Positions 12,430-64,000 of a DNA stretch of 64,000 nt are shown here, in pieces. The notes beneath the pieces were generated by a model. The model was not told where the DNA came from and made no database searches. It saw only the letters and a program-made list of their open reading frames with translations. Numbering within the stretch: the first letter of the stretch is position 1; every line of letters starts with the position of its first letter. Source of the stretch: Spirogloea muscicola (Eukaryota; Streptophyta; Zygnematophyceae; Spirogloeales; Spirogloeaceae). A program made the position numbers and the translations under genes. The stretch spans positions 315,695-379,694 of the forward strand of contig WELB01000074.1 in the NCBI GenBank assembly GCA_009602725.1. The letters run 5' to 3'.

Positions 12430-12590
12430 TTCCCCTGGCCCCCTTCTCGTACTTTGTTCATTCTTTTTTGGGCTGGCTTTTCCAGCCCCTGTCCTCAATG
12501 GGCCTTGTCCATTCTTTTGGGCTAGCCTCTCCCAGCCACCAGTTAATCTGGCCGCGCTTGCTCCTAATGGGCGAGCCCTTCCTTTCCCTC
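12430..12590 (+). mobile_element. Type A tail with a nested type B tail and 7-bp target duplication
   Basis: A type A tail is interrupted inside its terminal AATGGGCGAGCCC by a 62-base type B tail at 12504-12565. AATGGGC is present on both sides (12497-12503 and 12566-12572), and after the second copy the type A sequence continues with GAGCCC. This is direct evidence that the short B end was inserted as a unit. Confidence 0.85.
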
Positions 12591-47080: not shown

Positions 47081-47250
47081 CGGCGGCGGCAGCGGCGGCG
47101 GCGGCGATGGCGGCGCCGGCTCGCGGCTTTGACGGCGGCGGCGCTGGCGGGAGGGCACCGGAGTACTGTCCTACTCTGGCGGGGTTTTAGTAATGTCACT
47201 CAAGATTTAGTAACGGTACTCAACTGTATAGCCCTCCTTTCAGCAGCCGC

Positions 47251-49440
47251 AATGCCTTTAACAGTGTTGACAGAGGTGTCATCGCCGAGGAGCTGCGCAC
47301 GCATTTTCCCTCCCTCATCCCTTCCTTCCGGTGTTCCTACGGAGCACCCTCCCGACTGCTCTGGGGAGCGGGCACGTCACAGGTGGTCTTGCAATTACAG
47401 CACAGGCACCCAAAGAGCAACCCGGCTTTGGGCGGGTTCCTCTTTGCACTGGCACACCTACATGCGCTGCGTAGTACGGCGAAGGCCCACCCTGCCGTGC
47501 GAATCCCAAGCTACGCCGACGACACCACCCTGGTGGGACCCCCAACTGAAGTCACCAGCGCTTACAGCACGTTGGAGCGCGAGCTTCACAGCCTCGGCCT
47601 CAGCTTTCGGCCCCAGAAGTGTTCAGCCTGGTCTCCAGCCAGTGTTCTTCGTACTTCCCCTGGCCCCTTCTCGTCCTTTGTACATTCTTTTCTGGGCTGG
47701 CTTTTGCCAGCCCCTATCCTCGATGGGCGAGCCCTTCTCTTCTCTTCTCCAGCCGGCATCCCTCCCTCCAGCAAGCTGCCGGCCGGGTGCCAGACCCCAC
47801 CACTCGGCATGGTGGTGCTTGGAGCCCCGTTGGGGGCTGCTGCGCATGTGGAGCAAGTTGTGGAGTCCACCCTTGAGAACCATCTCCGGACCCTCCCGGC
47901 CCTCCCCTCCCTACAGGACGCTCAGCTTGCGGTGGCCATCCTCACCCGGTGTGTGGCCCAGCGTCCCACTTACCTGTTGCGGCCCGTGCCCCCCACCACT
48001 GCACTAAATGCCATCTACTCTATCGTGGACTCCAGACTCCAACAGGCTCTTCATGGCCTGGTGGACCATCCCGACCTATCCGCCACGCCGGCGGCCATCC
48101 TACAGTGTACCCTACCCACCAGTAAAGGCGGCCTTGGGTGCCGTCCATTGGCTCGCCTGTCCCAAGCAGCTCACCTGGGTTGCTGGGCCCAAGTGGCCTC
48201 CACCATCTCCAGTCGCTTCATCCTGAGGGGCCAGGCTGTTTTAGCACCCGCCATAGCGGGTGTTGCAGCAGGGAACCTGCCCTTCCAGCTTTCTTTAACC
48301 GCAGCACTATGTGACCTCTTGCGCTGCTTACCAACGCTTGCAGAGGGTCATGCAGATTTTGCGGCATGGGCACGCTGTTCTGACAGGAAAGCGCAGGGCC
48401 TTTACTCTCACGCCGCGGACGTGCAGGCCGCCTCTGAATTGCAGGGACTGCTCAAGGACGATGGACGTGGCCTCACCCGGCTCCTCTCCATCAGCTCCCC
48501 AGGCGCGTCGGAGTTGTTAAATGCTCTGCCGATATACGAGTCCCTTTGGCTCTCAGACAACCTGTTTCGTACCGCGCTCCATCACCACCTCGGCCTCCCC
48601 CCCCCTTGCTTGGCTGGCATCCGCCAGTGCGAGTGTGGCCACATTGCCGATGACAAGCTCGCCCTAGCTGCGCACATGCTGAGGTGTGCTGAGGGGGGTG
48701 AGCGCATTGCCTCCCACGACATACTCAGGGATACAATGTTTGGAATCTTGCGAGAGGCGGGGTATCATCCAGCGATGGAGGTGTCCGGCATCATGCCAAT
48801 CTCCTTCAGGCGCGGCAAGCCATACGTGCGGCGTCTGGACGTGGTCGCCACCCCCTGGGGCGGTGGGCCTCATCTGCTCCTGGACATGGTACTGATCGAC
48901 GCATACAAGGCTGGCGCACCCACGTCAACCGTGCCTGGCTGGGCCACGTCCAGCGCGGAGCGCAAGAAGGAGCGGCACTACCAGGACCATCCCCGAGGGG
49001 ACCATCTTTGCCCGTGTGCCATGGATATCTACGGCGGCTACGGCGTGAAATGGTCCTCCCTGATCCAGCATCTGGCCCGGCTGGTTGATGCGCGTCGTAA
49101 AAGCGCGTCGTGGGGGCAGCTTGGGCCACTCCAGCATTCCACAGGCCTTAATTGCATATTATAGAATGCGGCTCTCGCTTTGTTTGCTGCACTCACAAGC
49201 TTTGGCTCTTCATCAACGTGCAGGGCGCGCTCTAAGTCAGGCCTCCGGCTTTCGTGTCCGATTTGTTTGTGCTCTCCCGTGGGTACTAATGTCACCTTAG
49301 GAACCTTAGTTTAGGTCTCTGTATTATGTAGCCTTGTTTAGTAGTAGCCTTGCACTCGCCTCTGCTTGCACTGTGTATTGGCTTGAATTGGCCTCCCTTT
49401 TCATTTCATGCGCCCCGCGCGCCTTTCCCTTTCAGCTTAG
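47251..49440 (+). mobile_element. 5'-truncated LINE with reverse transcriptase, Cys/His knuckle and RLE-like domain
   Basis: One open frame runs from NAFNSVDR (47251; palm motif A region) to a stop at 49162-49164. It contains the catalytic YADDTTLV (near 47510), GLSFRPQKCSAW, a nested tail (47641-47745), a thumb region, then CECGHIADDKLALAAHMLRC (C-X1-C-X12-H-X3-C) and a C-terminal part with RRLDVV, LLLDMVLIDA, KERHYQDHP and AMDIYGGYG. The knuckle plus Asp...Asp...Lys layout resembles the restriction-like endonuclease end of R2-type LINEs; this assignment is inference. Motif B is worn (HRHPKSNPALGGFLFAL). A 3' untranslated region follows to about 49440 (TTGGCCTCCCTTTTCATTTC). The element begins about 170 bases upstream of the UTP20 start, facing away. 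Everything before motif A is missing. Confidence 0.85.
47641..47745 (+). mobile_element. 105-bp type A LINE tail nested in frame in the reverse transcriptase
   Basis: TCTCCAGCC occurs directly before (47632-47640) and after (47746-47754) the insert, a 9-bp target duplication. The insert starts AGTGTTCTTCGTACTTCCCC, contains the perfect hairpin GGGCTGGC-TTTT-GCCAGCCC and ends CTTCTCTTCTCT. Insert plus one duplication is 114 bases, so the host frame is kept and the insert reads through as 35 codons. Its sequence matches the 3' part of the type A end at 55.89-55.99 kb, so it is a 5'-truncated copy. Confidence 0.9.
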
Positions 49441-49544
49441 CAGCAGGTGATGTACATTAGTCACTGTGCTTGCATTTTTACTTGGCCGCACAGGCCCTCC
49501 AACACTTAAACACACTCAGTTCCTATCGAGAAAAAAATTGGCTC

Positions 49545-49790
49545 TTCCCCTGGCCCCCTTCTCCTACTTTGATCCTACTTTTTTGGGCTGGCTTTTCCAG
49601 CCCCTATCCTCAACTACTGAGTGGTCCATCCTCTCCCGTTCTGCCATAGCCTCTTCAGGCCCCGCAGTCGCTGCTTAGCTCGTAGTTTGGCCCCTTCGAA
49701 CCTTGTCAATTCTTTTCGGGCTGGCTTCTCACAGCCCTTGCCCCCATTGGGAGAGCCACTTCTTCTTCAATGGGCGAGCCCTTTCTTCAA
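49545..49790 (+). mobile_element. Type A tail, type D tail and a short A end
   Basis: About 49545-49612 is a type A tail (TTTTTTGGGCTGGCTTTTCC, then AGCCCCTATCCTCAA) that stops before its GGGCGAGCCC end. About 49690-49765 is a type D tail, and 49769-49786 is a GGGCGAGCCC end on its own. Confidence 0.65.
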
Positions 49791-50214
49791 CGGACTCCTT
49801 GGATTCCAAGAGCGCTACACGCTCGGCGGAGGATGCGGGCTACGCCGTCCGCCAAGCGGCCGACGCAAAGGATCGCAAGTACTCGGATCACCCGGTAGGC
49901 GACGAGTTTGTCCCACTCGCCGTCGACGTATACGGCGCCTTTGGCGCCAAATGGCTTGACCTACTTCATTGCCTTGCGCGGCGGGCAGCGGCCCGCCGCC
50001 ACGGGCAGCAGGGCGAGCAGCCTGGCTTCCATGTCGCCGGGTCCCTCGCCCAAGTTTTCCGGATGCGCCTGGCCGTCTCTTTGCAGCGGTCCCTTGCTTT
50101 TGCGGTCGACTTCCGCGCAGGCCGCGCTCTGGCGGCGGCCTCCGGCTTCCGTCAGGGCGACGTCTTTCCGCCTGCTAGCTATTCAGATTTGCATCTACTG
50201 ACGAGAAGTTACTG
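49790..50214 (+). mobile_element. LINE C-terminal coding fragment
   Basis: An open frame covering the end of the RLE-like domain (KDRKYSDHPVGDEFVPLAVD, then VYGAFGAKWLDLL) and the C-terminal segment GSLAQVFRMRLAVSLQRSL...RAGRALAAASGFRQGD, ending HLLTRSY and a stop. Comparison with the copies at 17.2 and 47.25 kb fixes the conserved residues of the domain. It runs directly into a type B tail. Confidence 0.8.
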
Positions 50215-50410
50215 AGAGTTGGCTTACTGCTGTCTCAGTCCTTAGCACTCCGACTCCTTCAGACCTTGTCCATTCTTTTGGGCTGGCCTCTCCCAGCCAC
50301 CAGTTAATCTGGCCGCGCTTGCTTCTTTCTTCAAAAAGAGGTTAAGAAGGGGGCAAGAGCAAGCGCGGCCAGAGCTGTGAACAGCCAGCCCGAATAGAAG
50401 TGACAAGATC
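50215..50410. mobile_element. Type B 3' end (plus) followed by a type D end (minus) carrying B sequence
   Basis: About 50215-50335 is the untranslated end of the preceding LINE: CCTTGTCCATTCTTTTGGGC, hairpin CCAGCC, CCAGTTAATCTGG, CCGCGCTTGCTTCTTTC. About 50346-50405 (minus) is a D tail in which AGCAAGCGCGGCCAG (a B end) lies after GGGGGCAAG. Confidence 0.7.
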
Positions 50411-50454: not shown

Positions 50455-50640
50455 AAGTGCGCGCCCATGGAGAAGAGGGGCTGGCAAAGCCAGCCCAAAA
50501 AAGAATGGACAATGTCCAAAGTCAAAGAAAGCAGAGCCGGAAAAGGACTACACTATTAAACACTGCAGAACACAGAGACGATGCAGAGGGAAGCTCAGTA
50601 CCCACGAGTGAGCAACATCAGGTCTGAGTAGAAGAAGAAG
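50455..50640 (-). mobile_element. Type C LINE 3' end
   Basis: From the MLLTRGY stop (near 50600) the type C 3' untranslated region runs to the hairpin GGGCTGGC-AAA-GCCAGCCC and the GCGCGCCC end at about 50460. Near identical to the copies at 9.45 and 16.67 kb. Confidence 0.78.
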
Positions 50641-50862: not shown

Positions 50863-51200
50863 AGGGCTCGCCCATTGAGCATAGGGGCTGGAAAAAGCCA
50901 GCCCAGAAAAGAATCAACAAAGGACGAGAAGCCAGCCCGAAAAGAATTGACAAGGTTACTGAGTAGCTCGCTGCAGGGAAAGAGGCACTCCGCCGAGACC
51001 CAGAGGCGGCGGCCATAGCACGGCCTGCTCGCGTGTCGACTGCGCGCCTATAGAAAAGAGGGGCTGGCAAAGCCAGCCCAAGAAAGAATGGACAACGTCC
51101 AAAGCCAAAGAAAGAGGAGCCGGAAAAAGAGAGAAGGACTCGCCCATTGAGGATAGGGGCTGGAAAAAGCCAGCCCAAAAACGAATGAACTAAGGACGAG
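50862..51200 (-). mobile_element. Type A, D, C and A LINE ends in succession
   Basis: Type A at about 50866-50925, a D piece at 50930-50956, a type C-like coding remnant and hairpin at 50965-51110, and another type A at 51125-51200. All are minus strand. The C-terminal coding part near 51030-50960 stops short of the usual LLTRGY, cut by the D end. Confidence 0.65.
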
Positions 51201-51359
51201 AAGGGGCCAGGGGAAGCCGGAAAAAGGACTACACCACAAAACATTAACGCTAAAAAGCGCTTTCCACAAACTTTCCCGGTAGGATAATCACTTAGTAACC
51301 TCTAGTGAGGAGCCGCAAATCAGAAAGACAAGCAGGCGGACAGCAATCAAAAAATGGCG

Positions 51360-52620: not shown

Positions 52621-52989
52621 TAGTTGGGCCCTTCTTGCTTTCCCTCCTCTTCCTTTCTTTCCAACCACTTTAAACTTCTTTTCCACTTTCCCTTCGCTAG
52701 TTTTCGGGCTGGTCTCTTTAACACATAGACTCCCCAACTAACTAATAGTCATGACGCGAGTGATCCGTCATTCTCATGCTCAGTCCTATCAATGACCATC
52801 ACCTCCATGTCAAGGTGTCACTAATCAAGTAATGGGGGCCCTCACAAGGAGGGGCAAAGAATACAAAATTGAGAAGTCGGCTCGTTTGATTCTGAATGTG
52901 CTTATCTATGTCCTGGTGGTTATGTGTGCCAGACCAGGAACAACTTTGATGCAACAGTTTCGCTCCCTACAAGCAGCAGTCTGTGTTGC

Positions 52990-55109
52990 CTAGGGGCAGA
53001 TGGAGCTATAGCCAATGCCGCCGAAGTAGAAGTAAGCCTCCCAACCTCCAGGATTGGCTCCGACCCAGATGCTGTAGCAGTTGCTGTTGCTGGTGTAGGA
53101 AGAGATGGCGTAGTCGAGGTTGTAAAGGGTGTTGTACTGGTTCACAAATTGGATATTACGGATGTAGGCAGCGTAGGACCAGCCCTTGGCCGCGTACCAG
53201 CCGCTGCCCATGTACGTGCGAGTGTGCCTCCCATAGGGCTCGATGTTCACGATCTCGCCTCCCCACTGGACCACCTCGGCGTGGCTGTTGAGGCGGGTGA
53301 ATATCCACCACGGCCAGTAACCCACCCACTGACCCTGGTACTGGAGCCACCAGTGGCCAGAGCCGGGGTCCTTGAAGACCAGGAGCGTGAACTCCCACTG
53401 CGTGCTCCCGTACCAGGAGACGGGAGTCACCCTGCCGCCGAGGTAGACATTGCCGTTTGTCTGCACGAAGCCGCTGCAGTCCAGATTGTAGCAGCCGGTG
53501 CTCTTGTATGCATCCCTCTGCGACCAGGGAGACGAGCGCCAGCGGTGAGTCCAGCTGTTGATGAGGTGAAGGATACCATGGCAAGGCTGACCATCTTACG
53601 GCAAGGCTGCTAGCGGACAAAGGACAGCACTCACCGTCCAGTAAATGAAGAGCCTGGACTGCCAGTCGCCGTACTTGTTGGGGTACAGCTGCCAACCCGC
53701 CTCGATCGTGTTCAGGTCGCCGTTGCCGTAGGACCCGGCCACCAGCCACAGCTGGGAGAGGCTGAACTCGCTTGCAAACTCCACATAGGGGTTCCAGACA
53801 TTGAACGTCGCCTTGGTGCCATATATGAGCCCGCTGTTCCCTCTGTATTCACCAATGGCATACTGCAGAATGCGACAAAGCATACCGTCAGCTGCAGGCA
53901 TGTGATAGAGAGGCACTTGGCAGCAAGATCTGCAAGCTGTGCCACGATGTATGCCAGTCTCAACATAGGCCACCTAACCCTCAGAGGAATCCTTGTCTGA
54001 CTAGGACACGGTTGAGCAATTGCGACTGACCTCGTGACCCGCATATGACGGCTTCTGGATGGCGTTGTAGTTGAGCCTCGTGGTGTTGCTGCCAGCTTTC
54101 ATCATGCCTGCAGTGAGGGTCTCGTTCCCAGGCGTACCAGTGCTATTCTTTTCCTTGTGATGGCCTTTGTTCGGGTGATGGCCACCGCCATGAGCCTTGG
54201 GGTGCTTCTTGAAAAAGTCTGGCAATGAGCCAGCCCTAGCGACTTCGTCGTCTGCAACAAGGGAAGGCTTTATCAATGCGACTGCAGGACTTTATTTTTA
54301 TGTGTCGTGCACATCGAGGTTGTGGAGAGCTACAGCCGCAGCTGAGAGTAAGGTATGTGAGATTCGCTTTGCAGATCGCACCAGCCTTGCCAGGAAACGT
54401 GGTGGAAGAAGAGGAGAGGACTTACGAGTGACGCGGCGGACGGGGATGGTGCCCTCTGGGCAGCTGCCCCAGGTCTGCTTGACTGGGACGTGCGAGCTGT
54501 TGACCTTGCCATCATCGGAGGCCTTGAGGGAAGGGGGTTTCATCTGCGAGAAGCCAGCAGCCGAATATCATTCAGTCGCATGCTGATAGAAGCGACCATG
54601 CGTTTTTCTATTAGGCGTGCTGCTGCAGTCTGCAGCGAGGCTGGACTACGGCCTGGCAGAAGGTGTGTCGGACAGCAAAGTACCTGAATCTTGTGGTCCT
54701 TGAACTTGGCATCCTGCATGGTGTGCTGGTCCGCAATCTTGACGCAGTCGACGACATCCCCATCTTCCGTGTGGATGGTCTTCTGAGCAGGCCTCTGGTG
54801 GCGGGCGACGTACTTGGCAATGCGCGCCTGGTGGTCCACATCTGGTGAATGAACGAATGTGCAGCTTGTCAACAGGCATCCCCAGATTGCGCAGTGCAGA
54901 CGTCTCCACTATTGTTGAGATGGATTGGATGGAAGAGTTGAGCGTGAGGAGTAAGGTGTAGAAGTGGTACCTGCGGAAGGCGGAGGGCTGCTGAGCAGGC
55001 GCCTGCCCTGCTGCGGCTGGCCCGCGGCGCTGAGGCCGGCGAAGAGGAGCTGGGCGAGGAGGAGGAGGCAGGCGAGGCCGAGCGGGCGGCGGCCCCGAGC
55101 GGGAGCCAT
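52990..55109 (-). CDS. Neprosin-family glutamic peptidase, copy 1 (6 exons, 463 aa)
   Basis: A secreted glutamic endopeptidase of the neprosin (DUF239) family. Exons (minus): 55109-54971, 54841-54684, 54543-54426, 54251-54031, 53862-53635, 53517-52990; all GT-AG and in phase. Residues 1-30 form a signal peptide (RRPLGLACLLLLAQLLFAGL). Exons 2-3 carry the activation-peptide domain (HTEDGDVVDCVKIADQH, KDHKIQMKPPS). Exon 4 has a His/Lys/Gly-rich linker (HPKAHGGGHHPNKGHHKEKN). The catalytic domain starts with GHEYAIGEY (first catalytic Glu) and includes NTIEAGWQLYPNKYGD, RLFIYWT, TGCYNLDCSGFVQTN and QWGGEIVN (second Glu), ending in Cys-Pro. It is a tandem duplicate of the gene at 59033, with identical exon lengths. 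Likely substrates are Pro-rich wall or external proteins, by family analogy. Confidence 0.95.
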
Positions 55110-55759
55110 GCCGGGGGCGAGTGGGCGGCTAGCCGGCTCCAAGAGGCCGCTTTGGTGCGCAGTGGGGGGTCTGAGGCCGATGGTCTGAGTCAGGAGGCAC
55201 GCTGGGTGGGCGGTGGGGCGGGAGTGGCCAGCAGGCGGGCAAGCGGGGTGCGCGGGAAGGCCGGGGTGGGGAGCCGGGGTGGGCCTGGCAGTGGTCGTCG
55301 GGCTTGGGGCTCTGTCCGGCGCAGTGCCGAGCCTGCCTCTTATAGTGGGGGCATTCGGGTGGGGGGCCCACCGGCTGGCGCCGTTGCGGGGCGCGTTGGC
55401 GCAGGTCAACACACCGGGTGCTGCGGGCACCTCCGAGTGGCTGCCCGCGCGGCAAACCCGACAGCAGCCTGCGAAAACTTCTGGGTGCTGCCCGGTCAAG
55501 CAGGGCAGCTGCTTACGGGAGGTGTTCTACGGCCTCCACGTGGCGCGCTGCCGTCGAGCCGCTGACCACCCTCCCCCCGCAGCCGCCGACGACCCGCTTC
55601 CAGCGCCGCAGGATCCTGCAGCCGGGACCTTCCTGGGAACGCCACGTGGCCTTCGCTGGCGCCTGCAGCGAGCGTCAACAGCCCCCGTGCTCGAGAGGGC
55701 CTTCTCGCTCGCCACGTGGCGCTCAATCGGGTTATCGGCGGGCCTGGTGGACGAGAGAG

Positions 55760-58354: not shown

Positions 58355-59032
58355 TAGACCTGTTGGTGACTTACATACACCACACTTTATCTTGCATTGG
58401 ATTGTGTACCATGTGCAAAATTATCAACGTTGACCAGGATGAAGCGTACCAAGCAAGTAAGCAGTGCCTCTAATTTTGATTCCTCGAAAGCCGGCTTCGA
58501 TGTAATTGCATTGCTGCCTTCAAATCTTTCCTTGTAGATTGTCAATGCGCTTGTAGAATGTCAATGCGCTGGTACTGATACTGAAATACTTATGTGACTC
58601 TCTTTGCAGATCTGTAACTTCGACAAAGCAACAACGCAAGCTCTGCATAGCAGTGTCTTTCATAAGTAGAGGAACTTGTTTAAAACACTTGTCTGTGCTT
58701 ATGGGTTTTGCAACATATTGTGAATGCTTGAGTTACTAGAGAATCAATGAATGGTGCTGCAAAATATGCGTCAATCTGTAGCTCACATCATCTTGACCAA
58801 CATTTGTATGACATGACAATATCAACAATCAAATAAGAGGTATTAGTGAGAAAGAATTTCAAAATTTAATTGTCCTTGAAACGAAGGACCTCAATACAAA
58901 CAAAATGGGCATGTCGTGTTATCGACACTCCTCAGGTCTGCCTCTTATCTATCCGGGTGTCAACCAATGCAACGGGCAGAACAGCTTCTAAGTAGCACTA
59001 ATTATGTTGTACAAGCAGCAGTCTTATGTTGC
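58346..59032. repeat. Neprosin 3' flank, repeated directly at 63.23-63.87 kb
   Basis: Shared blocks in the same orientation include CAGACGTGTAGACC, CAGTGCCTCTA, GACTTCGATGT-like, GAATCAATGAATGGTG-like and ACAAGCAGCAGTCT. This is the downstream flank of a neprosin copy. The matching part next to copy 1 (52.95 kb) is only about 20 bases. Confidence 0.8.
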
Positions 59033-61154
59033 TTAGGGGCAGATGGAGCTATAGCCAATGCCGCCAAAGTAGAAGTAAGCCTCCCAGCCTCCTGGATTGG
59101 CTCCGACCCAGATGCTGTAGCAGTTGCTGTTGCTGGTGTATGAAGAGATGGCATAGTCGAGGTTGTAGAGGGTGTTGTACTGGTTCACGAACTGGATGTT
59201 ACGGATGTAGGCAGCGTAAGACCAGCCCTTGGCCGCGTACCAGCCGCTGCCCATGTACGTGCGGGTGTGCCTTCCATAGGGCTCGATGTTCACGATCTCG
59301 CCTCCCCACTGGACCACCTCGGCGTGGCTGTTGAGGCGGGTGAATATCCACCACGGCCAGTAGCCCACCCACTGACCCTGGTACTGGAGCCACCAGTGGC
59401 CAGAGCCGGGGTCCTTGAAGACCAGAAGGGTGAACTCCCACTGCGTGCTCCCGTACCAGGAGACGGGAGTCACCCTGCCTCCGAGGTAGACATTGCCGTT
59501 CGTCTGCACGAAGCCGCTGCAGTCCAGGTTGTAGCAGCCGGTGCTCTTGTATGCATCCCTCTGCGACCAGGGAGACGAGAGCCGGCAGTGAGTCCAGCTG
59601 TTGATGAGGTAAAGAATGTCAAGGTAAGACTGACCATCTTACAGCGAGGCTGCTAGCGGACAAAGGACAGCACTCACCGTCCAGTAAATGAAGAGCCTGG
59701 ACTGCCAGTCGCCGTACTTGTTGGGGTACAGCTGCCAACCCGCCTCGATCGTGTTCAGGTCGCCGTTGCCGTAGGACCCGGCCACCAGCCACAGCTGGGA
59801 GAGGCTGAACTCGCTTGCAAACTCCACATAGGGGTTCCAGACATTGAACGTCGCCTTGGTGCCATATATGAGCCCGCTGTTCCCTCTGTATTCACCAATG
59901 GCGTACTGCAGAATGCGACAAAGCATACGGTCAGCTGCAGGCACGTGATAGACAGGCACTTGGGCAGCAAGATCTGCAAGCTGTGCCACGATGTATGCCA
60001 GTCTCAACATAGGCTACCTCACCCTCAGAGGAGTCCTTGTCAGACTAGGACACGGTTGAGCAACTGCGACTGACCTCGTGACCCGCATATGAAGGCTTCT
60101 GGATGGCATTGTAGTTGAGCCTCGTGGTGTTGCTGCCAGCTTTCATCATGCCTGCAGTGAGGGTCTCATTCCCAGGCGTACCAGTGCTATTCTTTTCCTT
60201 GTGATGGCCTTTGTTCGGGTGATGGCCACCGCCATGAGCCTTGGGGTGCTTCTTGAAAAAGTCTGGCAATGAGCCAGCCCTAGCGACTTCGTCATCTGCA
60301 ACAAGGGAAGGCTATATCAATGCGACTGCAGGACTTTATAAATGTCGTACACATCGAGGTTGTGGAGAGCTACAGCCGCAACTATGGATATGTGAGATTC
60401 GCTTTGCAGACCGCACGAGCCTTGCCAGGAAACGAGGTGGAGAAAGAGGAGAGGACTTACGAGTGACGCGGCGGACGGGGATGGTGCCCTCTGGGCAGCT
60501 GCCCCAGGTCTGCTTGACTGGGACATGCGAGCTGTTGACCTTGCCATCATCAGAGGCCTTGAGGGAAGGGGGCTTCATCTGCGAGAAGCCAGCAGCCGAA
60601 GATCTTTCAGTCGCATGCTGATGAAGGGCAGGCTTGCGCTCTTCTGTAAGGCTTGCTGACGCTTTCTGCGGCGAAGCTGGACTACGGCCTCGCAGAATAT
60701 ATGTGTGTTGGACAGTAAAGTACCTGGATCTTGTGATCCTTGAATTTGGCATCCTGCATGGTGTGCTGGTCCGCAACCTTGACGCAGTCGACGACATCGC
60801 CATCTTCCGTGTGGATGGTCTTTTGAGCAGGCCTCTGGTGGCGGGCAACGTACTTGGCAATGCGCGCCTGGTGATCTGCATCTGGTAAATGAATGAATGT
60901 GCAGCTTGTCAATAAGCCTCCCCAGAATGCGCAGTGGAGACGTGTCCATCAGTATGTAGATGAATTGGATGGAAGAGTGGAGTGCAAGGAGTAAGCGAAG
61001 GGGCCAATGTGGTACCTCCGGAAGGCGGAGGGCTGCTGAGCAGGCGCCTGCCCTGCTGCGGCTGGCCCGCGGCGCTGAGGCCGGCGAAGAGGAGCTGGGC
61101 GAGGAGGAGGAGGCAAGCGAGGCCGAGCGGGCGGCGACCCCGCGCGGGAGCCAT
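59033..61154 (-). CDS. Neprosin-family glutamic peptidase, copy 2 (6 exons, 463 aa)
   Basis: A tandem duplicate of the gene at 52990-55109. Exons (minus): 61154-61016, 60881-60724, 60578-60461, 60295-60075, 59905-59678, 59560-59033; each has exactly the same length as in copy 1. The last 158 residues (from VQTNGN on) are identical to copy 1 although about 17 bases differ, all silent. Small changes occur elsewhere: GG/GA before the first splice, V for I in DCVKVADQH, and A for V in DADHQAR. Signal peptide, activation domain, HEYA and QWGGEI glutamates and all cysteines are kept, so both copies should be active. Upstream are six CACGTG boxes. The stop codon is TAA here and TAG in copy 1. Confidence 0.95.
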
Positions 61155-62284
61155 GCCGGGGGCGAGACGACGGCTCGTCAGCTCCTGAGGCCGCTCCGGT
61201 GGGCAGTGGGCGGTATAAGGCCAGCGGCAGGCTGCGAGCTCAAGGAGGCGCGCTGAGCGGGTGGTAGGGAGGGAAAGGCCAGCAGGAGGGCAGGTGGGGG
61301 GTGCGCCGGGAGGCCGGGGTGGGGGAGGGGAGGGGAGTCCTGGCAGGTGGTCGCCGGGCTTGGGGCTGGGGGGGCTTGGGGCCGAGTGACGAGCCCCCTG
61401 CCTCTTGTAGTGGGGGGCGGCCTAGGGGCGGTGGGAGAGCCACCTCTCTTAGGGGCGGTGACCGGACGGCAGCGGCGCGTCGCCACAGAGCGCGGGTCAA
61501 CGACGGGGGCAGCTCGAAGAAGTTGCCCCATTCTGTCAACCCTCTTGGGGGCTGCCCTTTCCACAGCATCGCCCCGTCTTGGGGAAATGGCCCACAATTT
61601 CCGTCCCCCGGGCTTGTCATTCAAGCGCTGCCCGGCAGCATTTGGGGCAGCCATCGGTGAGGTGCAACTGCAGTGCACCACGTGGCATCCCCTGGCAGGG
61701 CCGTTGACCTCCTTTGCGCTGACCCCCATCCAGCCGCCGGTGGCAGTGGCTGCCGACAAGCTTGTCACGTGCGTTGCGCACAGCTTCCGCGGCAGCGTGC
61801 CGCGCCCAGCGCGTAACACCCCCCCCGGGTCTAAGCTGCACCCTCGCTCCACCACGTGGCGCGCAGAGAGCACCCTCCCCAATGGGGGAAGCTTGGGGCC
61901 GCAGGGCGCCCGCCATTCTCGTACTTTGTTCGTTCTTTTCTGGGCTGGCCTTTCCAGTCCCGTCGGCGCTGCGATCTGAAACTTGCTGGGGGCTGCCCGG
62001 TCAGCCCGGGCAGTCGCTGTTAGTCAAGATGTGCTCTACGTCCTCCACGTGGCGCGCCTTCGTCGAGCCGCTGACCCCTTCCCCCGCGCAGCCGTCCGAT
62101 GACCCGCTTCCGGTGCCGCAGAACAACTGCAGCGGGGAAGCTTCCGAAATCGGCACGTGGCTCTCGCTGGCGCCTGCGATGAGCGTCAACGGCCACCAAT
62201 TTCAAGAGCGCTCCCCCGGCACGCCACGTGGCAATTTGTCAGGCTCTCGGCGGTGCCCGCTGGAAGAGAGGAAGACTCCCCAGT
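61155..62284. promoter_or_regulatory. Neprosin copy 2 upstream region with six CACGTG boxes
   Basis: CACGTG occurs at 61679, 61768, 61853, 62046, 62154 and 62225, five of them as CACGTGG. They lie 0.5-1.1 kb upstream of the start codon. The last three correspond to the three boxes of copy 1; the first three lie in sequence not seen upstream of copy 1. A cut type A LINE tail (GTTCTTTTCTGGGCTGG) sits at 61917-61970, between the two groups. Confidence 0.55.
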
Positions 62285-63224: not shown

Positions 63225-63874
63225 TCAATCTTCTTTCAGACGTGTAGACCTTATGGTGTCTTTTATACACCACGCTCTGTTGTGCGCGTTTTGTGTACTA
63301 TGTGTACAGCAATCAATGGTGACTAAGATGAACCAGATGAAGCTGTTAGCAGTGCCTCTAGTTGTTGTCTTCTTGACAGCCGACTTCGATGTGATTGTGT
63401 TGCTGCTTTTCTTTGTCAATCCGCTGGTACTTATACGGAAATTTCTATTTAGCCTGTCTTTGCAGTTCTATGAGCTTTTACTAGAGCAACAACTCAGGTT
63501 CTGCAACTAGCCCTTTTGGCTTCTTGACATACTTGCTACCACCGTTGTCTCTTTCACTGGGTTTTACAATGTACTGTGATTGTTTGAGTGACTAGGAGAT
63601 CGATGAATGGTGTCGCAAATAGTGCATCAATCTGTGGCTCACATTATGACTACATTTATACGACAAGACAACACCAAAATATGGAAAAAAAGATTCGTTA
63701 TGAGCAGAGGTTGAAAGAATGACTCAGTCCTTCAAGAGAAGGAGCTCAAAGAATACAAAATCGGGAGATCGTGTCATCTGACACTCCTCGAGGTAATCTA
63801 TCCTGGTCTTGACCAGTGCAAGAGCCAGAGCTTCTAAGAGGCAGCAGATATGGTTTACAAGCAGCAGTCTATGC
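63225..63874. repeat. Third-unit neprosin 3' flank
   Basis: A direct repeat of 58346-59032. 63021-63224, to its left, has no match I can find elsewhere in the window. Confidence 0.75.
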
Positions 63875-63960
63875 TCATACGCAGATGGAGCTATAGCCGA
63901 CGCCGCCGAAGTAGAAGTAAGCCTCCCAGCCTCCAGGATTGGCTCCAACCCAGATGCTGT
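63875..63960 (-). pseudogene. Neprosin copy 3, only the 3' end of the last exon
   Basis: The minus strand ends YFYFGGVGYSSIC plus Val and TGA, aligned to the last 28 or so codons of copies 1 and 2 (final residue Pro there). Homology stops abruptly at about 63960. Beyond it the sequence is not neprosin, so the copy cannot make the enzyme unless the join is an assembly error. Confidence 0.8.
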
Positions 63961-63964
63961 GGCT

Positions 63965-64000
63965 GTGGCATCCCCTGGCAGGGCCGTTGACCTCCTTTGC
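63965..64000 (+). repeat. Copy of 61682-61717 fused to the neprosin 3' fragment
   Basis: 36 bases (starting GTGGCATCCCCTGGCAGGGC) are identical to the G-box promoter region upstream of neprosin copy 2. The junction falls in a GGC/TGT-rich stretch. Confidence 0.85.

Follow-up and report, generated by a model that had tools for sequence, protein, structure and literature searches.

How a LINE protein chooses its own RNA has been shown experimentally for few elements. The stretch of Spirogloea muscicola DNA analyzed here (64,000 nucleotides of contig C74, hereafter the window) raises this question in a direct form, since LINE tails of at least four types share a 3′ hairpin, and a sequence-only reading of the window had proposed that this hairpin is what the reverse transcriptase (RT) recognizes. 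Such recognition, which that reading took to be established for some LINEs, is in print for zebrafish stringent-type LINEs, whose proteins bind their own 3′ stem-loop, the stem being general and the loop specific (available part of PMC4176376). From green-algal genomes, Dualen/RandI and Zepp-like L1 are known LINEs (available part of PMC8226300), and our literature search, with subscription journals and Repbase outside its coverage, found no account in green algae of elements such as those described below.

Abundance and types of the 3′ tail

The motif TTGTNNNTTCTTTT (≤1 mismatch) has 26 matches in the 64-kb window, compared with a mean of 0.86 and a maximum of 3 in 100 shuffles. Across the genome searched (153 Mb, 471 contigs), the motif together with GGGCTG occurs in 8,209 exact copies (4,043 + 4,166), and the reversed pattern in 0. 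The gene content of the window includes UTP20 and pfkB domains, as found by domain search, and together with the flanking genes points to a green alga.

Average-linkage clustering of 284 tails yields 111 clusters, with large clusters A (73 tails), C (39), D (27) and B (27, as 24 + 3) that match the four types read from the window, a cluster F of 4 tails, and numerous small clusters and singletons beyond these. The details of stem and 3′ end need correcting. A stem ending in CAGCCC had been attributed to all types, whereas B tails have CAGCCA (27/27); each type had been assigned different last bases, whereas the 3′ ends overlap and subfamilies of both A and C also end in GGGCGAGCAC. The hexamer that follows the family end consists entirely of C/T in 112/143 A, 24/37 C, 43/55 D and 15/44 B copies, and likewise in 49/52 E, 6/12 F and 11/22 G copies, compared with 198/7,542 background hexamers. 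Families A–D have in common, as stringent-type LINEs do, a conserved 3′ tail without poly(A), in which a shared pairing is putative. We find that the tail observation is real and, with the corrections given, largely holds.

Nested elements at positions 47251–50340

The largest element in this interval is a 5′-truncated copy of LINE family E (47250–49423, plus strand; delimited by tblastn, translation and the E tail end), which holds the end of the RT domain, the C-terminal RLE-like part, the 3′ UTR and the tail GCGCCCCGCGCGCC. Its RVT_1 match is weak (E 0.0023), its coding end reads SDLFVLSRGY, and its stop codon (49287–49289) lies in a frame that differs from that of the upstream part. The coding end is of the same kind as in the hairpin families, and the copy is without a GGGCTG hairpin of its own. 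Comparison with the uninterrupted E copy in locus L019 reveals a 5′-truncated A-family tail of 105 nt (47641–47745, plus strand) inserted in frame in the E reading frame. This tail carries the A-type hairpin GGGCTGGC TTTT GCCAGCCC (47694–47713, plus strand) and is flanked by the target duplication TCTCCAGCC (47632–47640 and 47746–47754).

Downstream, all on the plus strand, the left part of a second A-family tail (49538–49613, repeat family D2; hairpin 49585–49603) and its right part, AATGGGCGAGCCCTTTCTTC (49769–49788), are split by a 5′-truncated D-family copy made up of 3′ UTR and tail (49614–49768, repeat family D6; hairpin 49718–49737). The following element, a 5′-truncated B-family copy (49789–50334), comprises an RLE-like coding end (stop 50213–50215), 3′ UTR, tail and pyrimidine run, with the B-type hairpin GGGCTGG CCTCTC CCAGCCA at 50280–50299 and the B end CCGCGCTTGC at 50313–50322. 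The nearest C-family tail lies just beyond the interval, on the minus strand (50459–50511, repeat family D1). Each tail had been said to follow its own coding end; within the interval this is true of the B tail alone, one A tail lying inside the E frame and the other being split by a D copy of almost only 3′ UTR and tail. Elsewhere in the window, an A tail (12451–12574, plus strand) is interrupted by a B tail, with AATGGG visible by eye on either side of the B insert.

Proteins of the LINE families

Two B elements, L069 and L070, each contain a single frame of 1,521 and 1,517 codons, respectively, from stop to stop. Frame lengths in this genome need care, as open-frame listings reach 15,922 codons and the 1,512-codon open frame of L071 (C47:439400-446000) is mostly a run of N. 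A first look at coding ends returned 8,252 E, 19,187 B, 16,598 D, 15,124 G and 19,920 C candidates, which overlap and are not copy numbers.

In a Pfam scan, RVT_1 matches the two full B frames (E 1.2e-14 and 2.3e-10) and an E fragment (E 1.2e-12), and the closest solved proteins are R2 (E 0.0012 and 0.00062, aligned over the RT only); RVT_1 matches with R2 as the best solved match identify these proteins as non-LTR reverse transcriptases. The C-terminal part of L069 and L070, read by eye in an alignment, shows CxC...H...C and the RLE-like pattern RR-x-D ... DVV ... K...Y, an order that resembles the RLE motif. Neither a Pfam model nor a solved RLE matched this part; because no Pfam model recognizes it, the label "RLE" rests on motif and architecture. 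The RLE-like domain of the sequence-only reading is thus visible as a putative C-terminal motif order, without a Pfam or solved-RLE match. Zinc-finger-like motifs at the N-terminus and, following the RT, a CCHC-like one are visible by eye in L069 and partly in L070, and a Zn_SUZ12 match in a B frame is sub-threshold (E 0.029).

No Pfam family of apurinic-type endonucleases was found in the two full B frames at E values up to 0.1. This sets the two frames apart from L1, which carries the apurinic type, and from Dualen, which combines the two types of endonuclease; an identity of these B elements with Dualen was consequently rejected. Similarly to the R2 group, the B elements combine one long frame and an RT with candidate zinc-finger-like motifs and a C-terminal CxC..H..C plus a candidate RLE-like motif; unlike R2, several families of A–D have a short hairpin tail in common. 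The best explanation is that A–D belong to a single clade of R2-like LINEs of the RLE type.

Insertion pattern

Among 356 tail ends surveyed, 197 have a candidate uninterrupted copy, and 97 of these have both flanks resolved. Exact target duplications of 4–15 nt, with differing targets, are present at 24 of the 97 resolved sites, and no clean 4–15 nt duplication at the other 73. The lengths of 5′ truncation vary widely among copies. Short duplications together with varied 5′ truncation fit a target-primed reverse transcription that is not tied to one target site. The insertions of R2 go to one 28S rDNA site, whereas the copies analyzed here are dispersed, with varied targets and 4–15 nt duplications (for R2, available part of PMC4640811); as the 24 duplication-bearing sites differ, and many lie inside other copies, the elements are not R2 proper. 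RLE LINEs are mostly target-specific, the main exception being HERO, whose many non-specific families resemble those described here in a comparison by description only (available part of PMC4640811). A pile-up of 5′ truncations at the hairpin foot was dropped as a candidate, consisting of 7 A copies at 55–64 nt versus 1 per adjacent bin and not extending to all families.

Numerous copies are short and hold little beyond the tail, as might be expected if tail-only copies were non-autonomous elements (SINEs) and not truncated LINEs. However, copy lengths vary widely, LINE-like coding remnants lie upstream of F tails, and a search of 10 loci, which addressed tRNA-type heads only, found no tRNA gene. 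These F remnants and the search of the 10 loci give no evidence of non-autonomous partners, and we regard SINEs as a very improbable source of the tail-only copies, which we take to be truncated LINEs.

Tail type and protein lineage

The relation between tails and coding ends was analyzed in 360,987 bases (88 loci plus the window), a non-random sample whose loci were picked with the motif, with coding queries of E, D and G and with an A tail, and which yielded calls for 204 coding ends and 496 tails. Pairs were formed where a tail lies ≤260 nt from a coding end with no intervening coding end, and identical duplicates were removed. Types agree in 126 of the resulting 140 pairs (A 37, B 16, C 23, D 14, E 15, G 21); the remaining 14 are mismatched, some of them being nested copies. 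A 30-row protein tree unites the tail-called rows within A, within B and within C, and places A–D in one group with 100/100 (D being represented by one row). This group is also recovered with 100/100 in a DNA tree built from 49 of the 74 rows (8 rows had no tail call; short ones were left out, and E and G were cut down to 6 each). The DNA tree, which includes one long row and long branches joining G to the others, requires 9 tail-label changes compared with a shuffled mean of 32.0, with 0/200 shuffles as low. Tail types are thus tied to LINE lineages, both by the 126/140 matching pairs and by the low number of label changes, a link on which the sequence-only reading had made its proposal depend.

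Lineages E and G have related coding ends (SDLFVLTRGY and SDLYVLTRGY) and tails without TTGT...GGGCTG. Because A–D form one clade, and E and G share the coding end without the hairpin, a single inherited tail is the best reading of the four, in preference to four independent cases; a single origin of the tail in the A–D ancestor, or one loss towards E and G, is the simplest reading. We note that the E, G1 and G2 tails (e.g., in L011 and L064) hold short GGCC-type inverted repeats of their own, such as GGCC ATTT GGCC in G1, and are perhaps a different tail class. TTTAGGG telomere-like repeats lie beside or upstream of LINE tails in L064 (about 1230–1270) and L072.

Conservation and folding of the hairpin

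Among 34 diverse tails that were aligned, the inner stem hardly varies: 87.0% of its cells are paired and only 2 are changed on both sides. The outermost pair is G-C in 13/33 tails and broken by a one-sided change in 20/33; a one-base shift in the 3′ arm of the C-type tails L051 and L048 and a gapped arm in L068 lower these pair counts. RNAalifold predicts zero pairs from this alignment. Compensatory stem changes, by which the sequence-only reading had proposed to check the hairpin, were accordingly not found in the 34 tails. Folds of single tails are not clearly below those of shuffles (z −1.13 for A, −1.48 for B, −1.19 for C, +0.24 for D and −0.57 for F), so that energy alone is no proof of a fold. 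With simple folding, the hairpin is favored in the A, C and D consensus tails (inner-stem pair probability 0.95–1.0) and not in those of B (0.29–0.35) or F (0.09).

Median identities between families, drawn from 11 B, 9 D, 5 A and 2 C copies, are 80–100% in the arms, 62–86% in the loops, 75–81% in the TTGT arm and 40–81% after the hairpin, compared with 46–54% in the UTRs and 56–67% in the coding ends. The stem is therefore kept while the loop varies, as had been read from the window, and it is this conservation of both arms around a changing loop that argues for a putative structure. The same block could also be conserved because it is read as primary sequence, by the protein or by a 3′-end processing factor, with the hairpin incidental: the arms are nearly invariant and do not covary, the U-rich arm is conserved as well, and B and F retain the sequence though the fold is not favored in them. 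Yet two complementary arms are both kept around the changing loop, and several of the arm changes are wobbles that preserve pairing, and we consider reading of the primary sequence unlikely. The reading that we prefer, recognition of a paired stem, has a counterpart in ZfL2-1, ZfL2-2 and UnaL2, which like A–D have a 3′ stem-loop with a general stem and a family-variable loop; unlike A–D, these are L2-clade elements with the endonuclease before the RT, and recognition in stringent LINEs is experimental, whereas for A–D we infer it from sequence (available part of PMC4176376).

Two further helices were considered. A small upstream helix (GGAC...GTCC, GAAC...GTTC) is paired in 66.1% of cells, and 4/5 of its pairs show two-sided changes, in 8 cells; covariation is not claimed for it, as the whole-structure score was matched by 38/500 shuffles. 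An outer helix, which encloses the hairpin when the TTGTNNATT arm pairs with the 3′ end, has pair probabilities of 0.81–0.97 in the first A consensus and is partial in C (0.35–0.65, 8/9 bases) and D (0.58–0.67, 7/9); the second A consensus forms a different outer helix, and B and F none. A preference for the cognate arm is seen in D only (−6.7 kcal/mol versus −4.8 with the A 3′ arm and −3.7 with the A 5′ arm), the outer arms of D and A differing by one compensated difference, and the B 5′ arm would pair more stably with the A 3′ arm (−12.9) than with the 3′ arm of B (−2.7). This preference of the B arm speaks against a general outer helix, and we treat the helix of C, D and one A consensus as no more than a lead.

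A multiplied tail swap and the closing base

In L032 and L047, a B coding end is joined to a C-type tail through an identical, unusual junction (B′). Genome-wide, this junction occurs 116 times (62 + 54; ≤2 mismatches) and its reversed control 0 times; 10 of the 116 form a single tandem array with 882-base units, to which L047 belongs. Among the 100 junctions listed, at least 6 of 150 B coding-end matches (85–89% identity) lie within 60 nt of a B′ junction. Two further B′ copies have coding ends 81–91% identical to those of three other B copies, again with a C-type tail, and in the DNA tree the B′ rows pair with 100/99 inside the B group (89/86). These results show that B′, which is new here, is a multiplied subfamily with a B-lineage coding end and a C-type tail. 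The LINE-derived tandem array beside L047 (C353:50086-58051) holds its ten B′ junctions at an exact 882-base spacing.

Directly after CAGCC, the base that faces the first stem G is C in 74/76 A, 45/50 D and 40/44 C-type tails not recognized as B′, and A in 27/27 B, 16/21 F and 3/3 B′ tails, and likewise in L090. In exact C tails genome-wide, this closing base is C in 343 and A in 5. A B′ signature whose search pattern itself contains A at the closing base retrieves 206 tails (≤2 mismatches), and among the 100 matches listed, 69 are exact; the other 31 carry a single mismatch, which in no case falls at the closing base. The B′ tail therefore looks like a C tail, its few differences including the very base that sets B apart. 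We note that this closing-base pattern of B′ is one evolutionary event and that the donor C-type tail may already have had the A.

The DNA tree also contains three rows with a C-type tail after an A-lineage coding end, next to the two after B-lineage ends. Such rows, the 14 mismatched pairs and the 116 B′ junctions are what one would expect if tails were freely exchanged modules, any protein of the clade using any tail and the lineage link reflecting linkage and recent descent. Against this, most coding-end/tail pairs match, the one A-to-C junction tested occurs a single time in the genome, with no multiplied copies, and the B′ tail carries the B state at the closing base; free exchange thus appears improbable to us. 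A recognition code, in which the stem would mark the clade and the closing base the protein lineage, with a C that can pair with G in A, C and D and an unpaired A in B and mostly in F, could account for a chimera with closing base A, as in B tails, at about a hundred places. We put this code forward tentatively and hold it to be rather doubtful; if true, RLE-type LINE proteins would read a specific base at the hairpin foot, and the genome would hold a natural mutant series to prove the code.

Proposed mechanism

We consider it probable that a shared, inherited tail is bound by the element's own protein and primes target-primed reverse transcription in families of one R2-like RLE clade. The tail inherited from the common ancestor would comprise a U-rich arm (UUGUNNAUUCUUUU), the GGGCUG/CAGCC stem-loop, a GAGC-like end and a short pyrimidine run. 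The element's own protein would bind this tail, the bound protein would bring the 3′ end of the RNA to the nicked target DNA, and target-primed reverse transcription would start at the tail and lead to 5′-truncated copies with short target duplications. The hairpin would be the binding site, with its pairing rather than its base sequence being read, and the B′ protein would itself have moved the C-type tail.

Recognition of the hairpin by the element's protein appears, on this analysis, to be the likeliest mechanism. The lineage link and the conserved arms speak for the original proposal that the reverse transcriptase recognizes the hairpin, and the absence of compensatory changes speaks against it. 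With a single inherited tail and no covariation, the arms are yet conserved above the coding ends (80–100% versus 56–67%), which we count in favor of the mechanism. We count against it that E and G do without the hairpin, that the B and F consensus folds do not favor it, that fold energies are near those of shuffles, and that we infer target priming from the insertions alone.

One genome here combines four abundant hairpin families, two hairpin-less relatives, copies in the thousands and a natural, multiplied tail swap, and among these contrasts it is above all the tail swap that goes beyond the routine. The contrasts separate stem, loop, closing base and 3′ end, making the rule testable with few protein/RNA pairs. 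This has a bearing on R2-like proteins as gene-insertion tools, which begin copying at the 3′ end of the template.

Further observations in the window

On the minus strand at 51131–51291, a C-type 3′ UTR (GTGGTGTAGTCCTTTTTCCGGCT) apparently runs, by eye, into an A-type tail, an arrangement converse to that of the A-to-C chimeras. The segments 52984–55140 and 59027–61185, about 6.04 kb apart, contain blocks that are 89–97% identical and represent a local duplication, to which a third piece at 63872–63969 is related.
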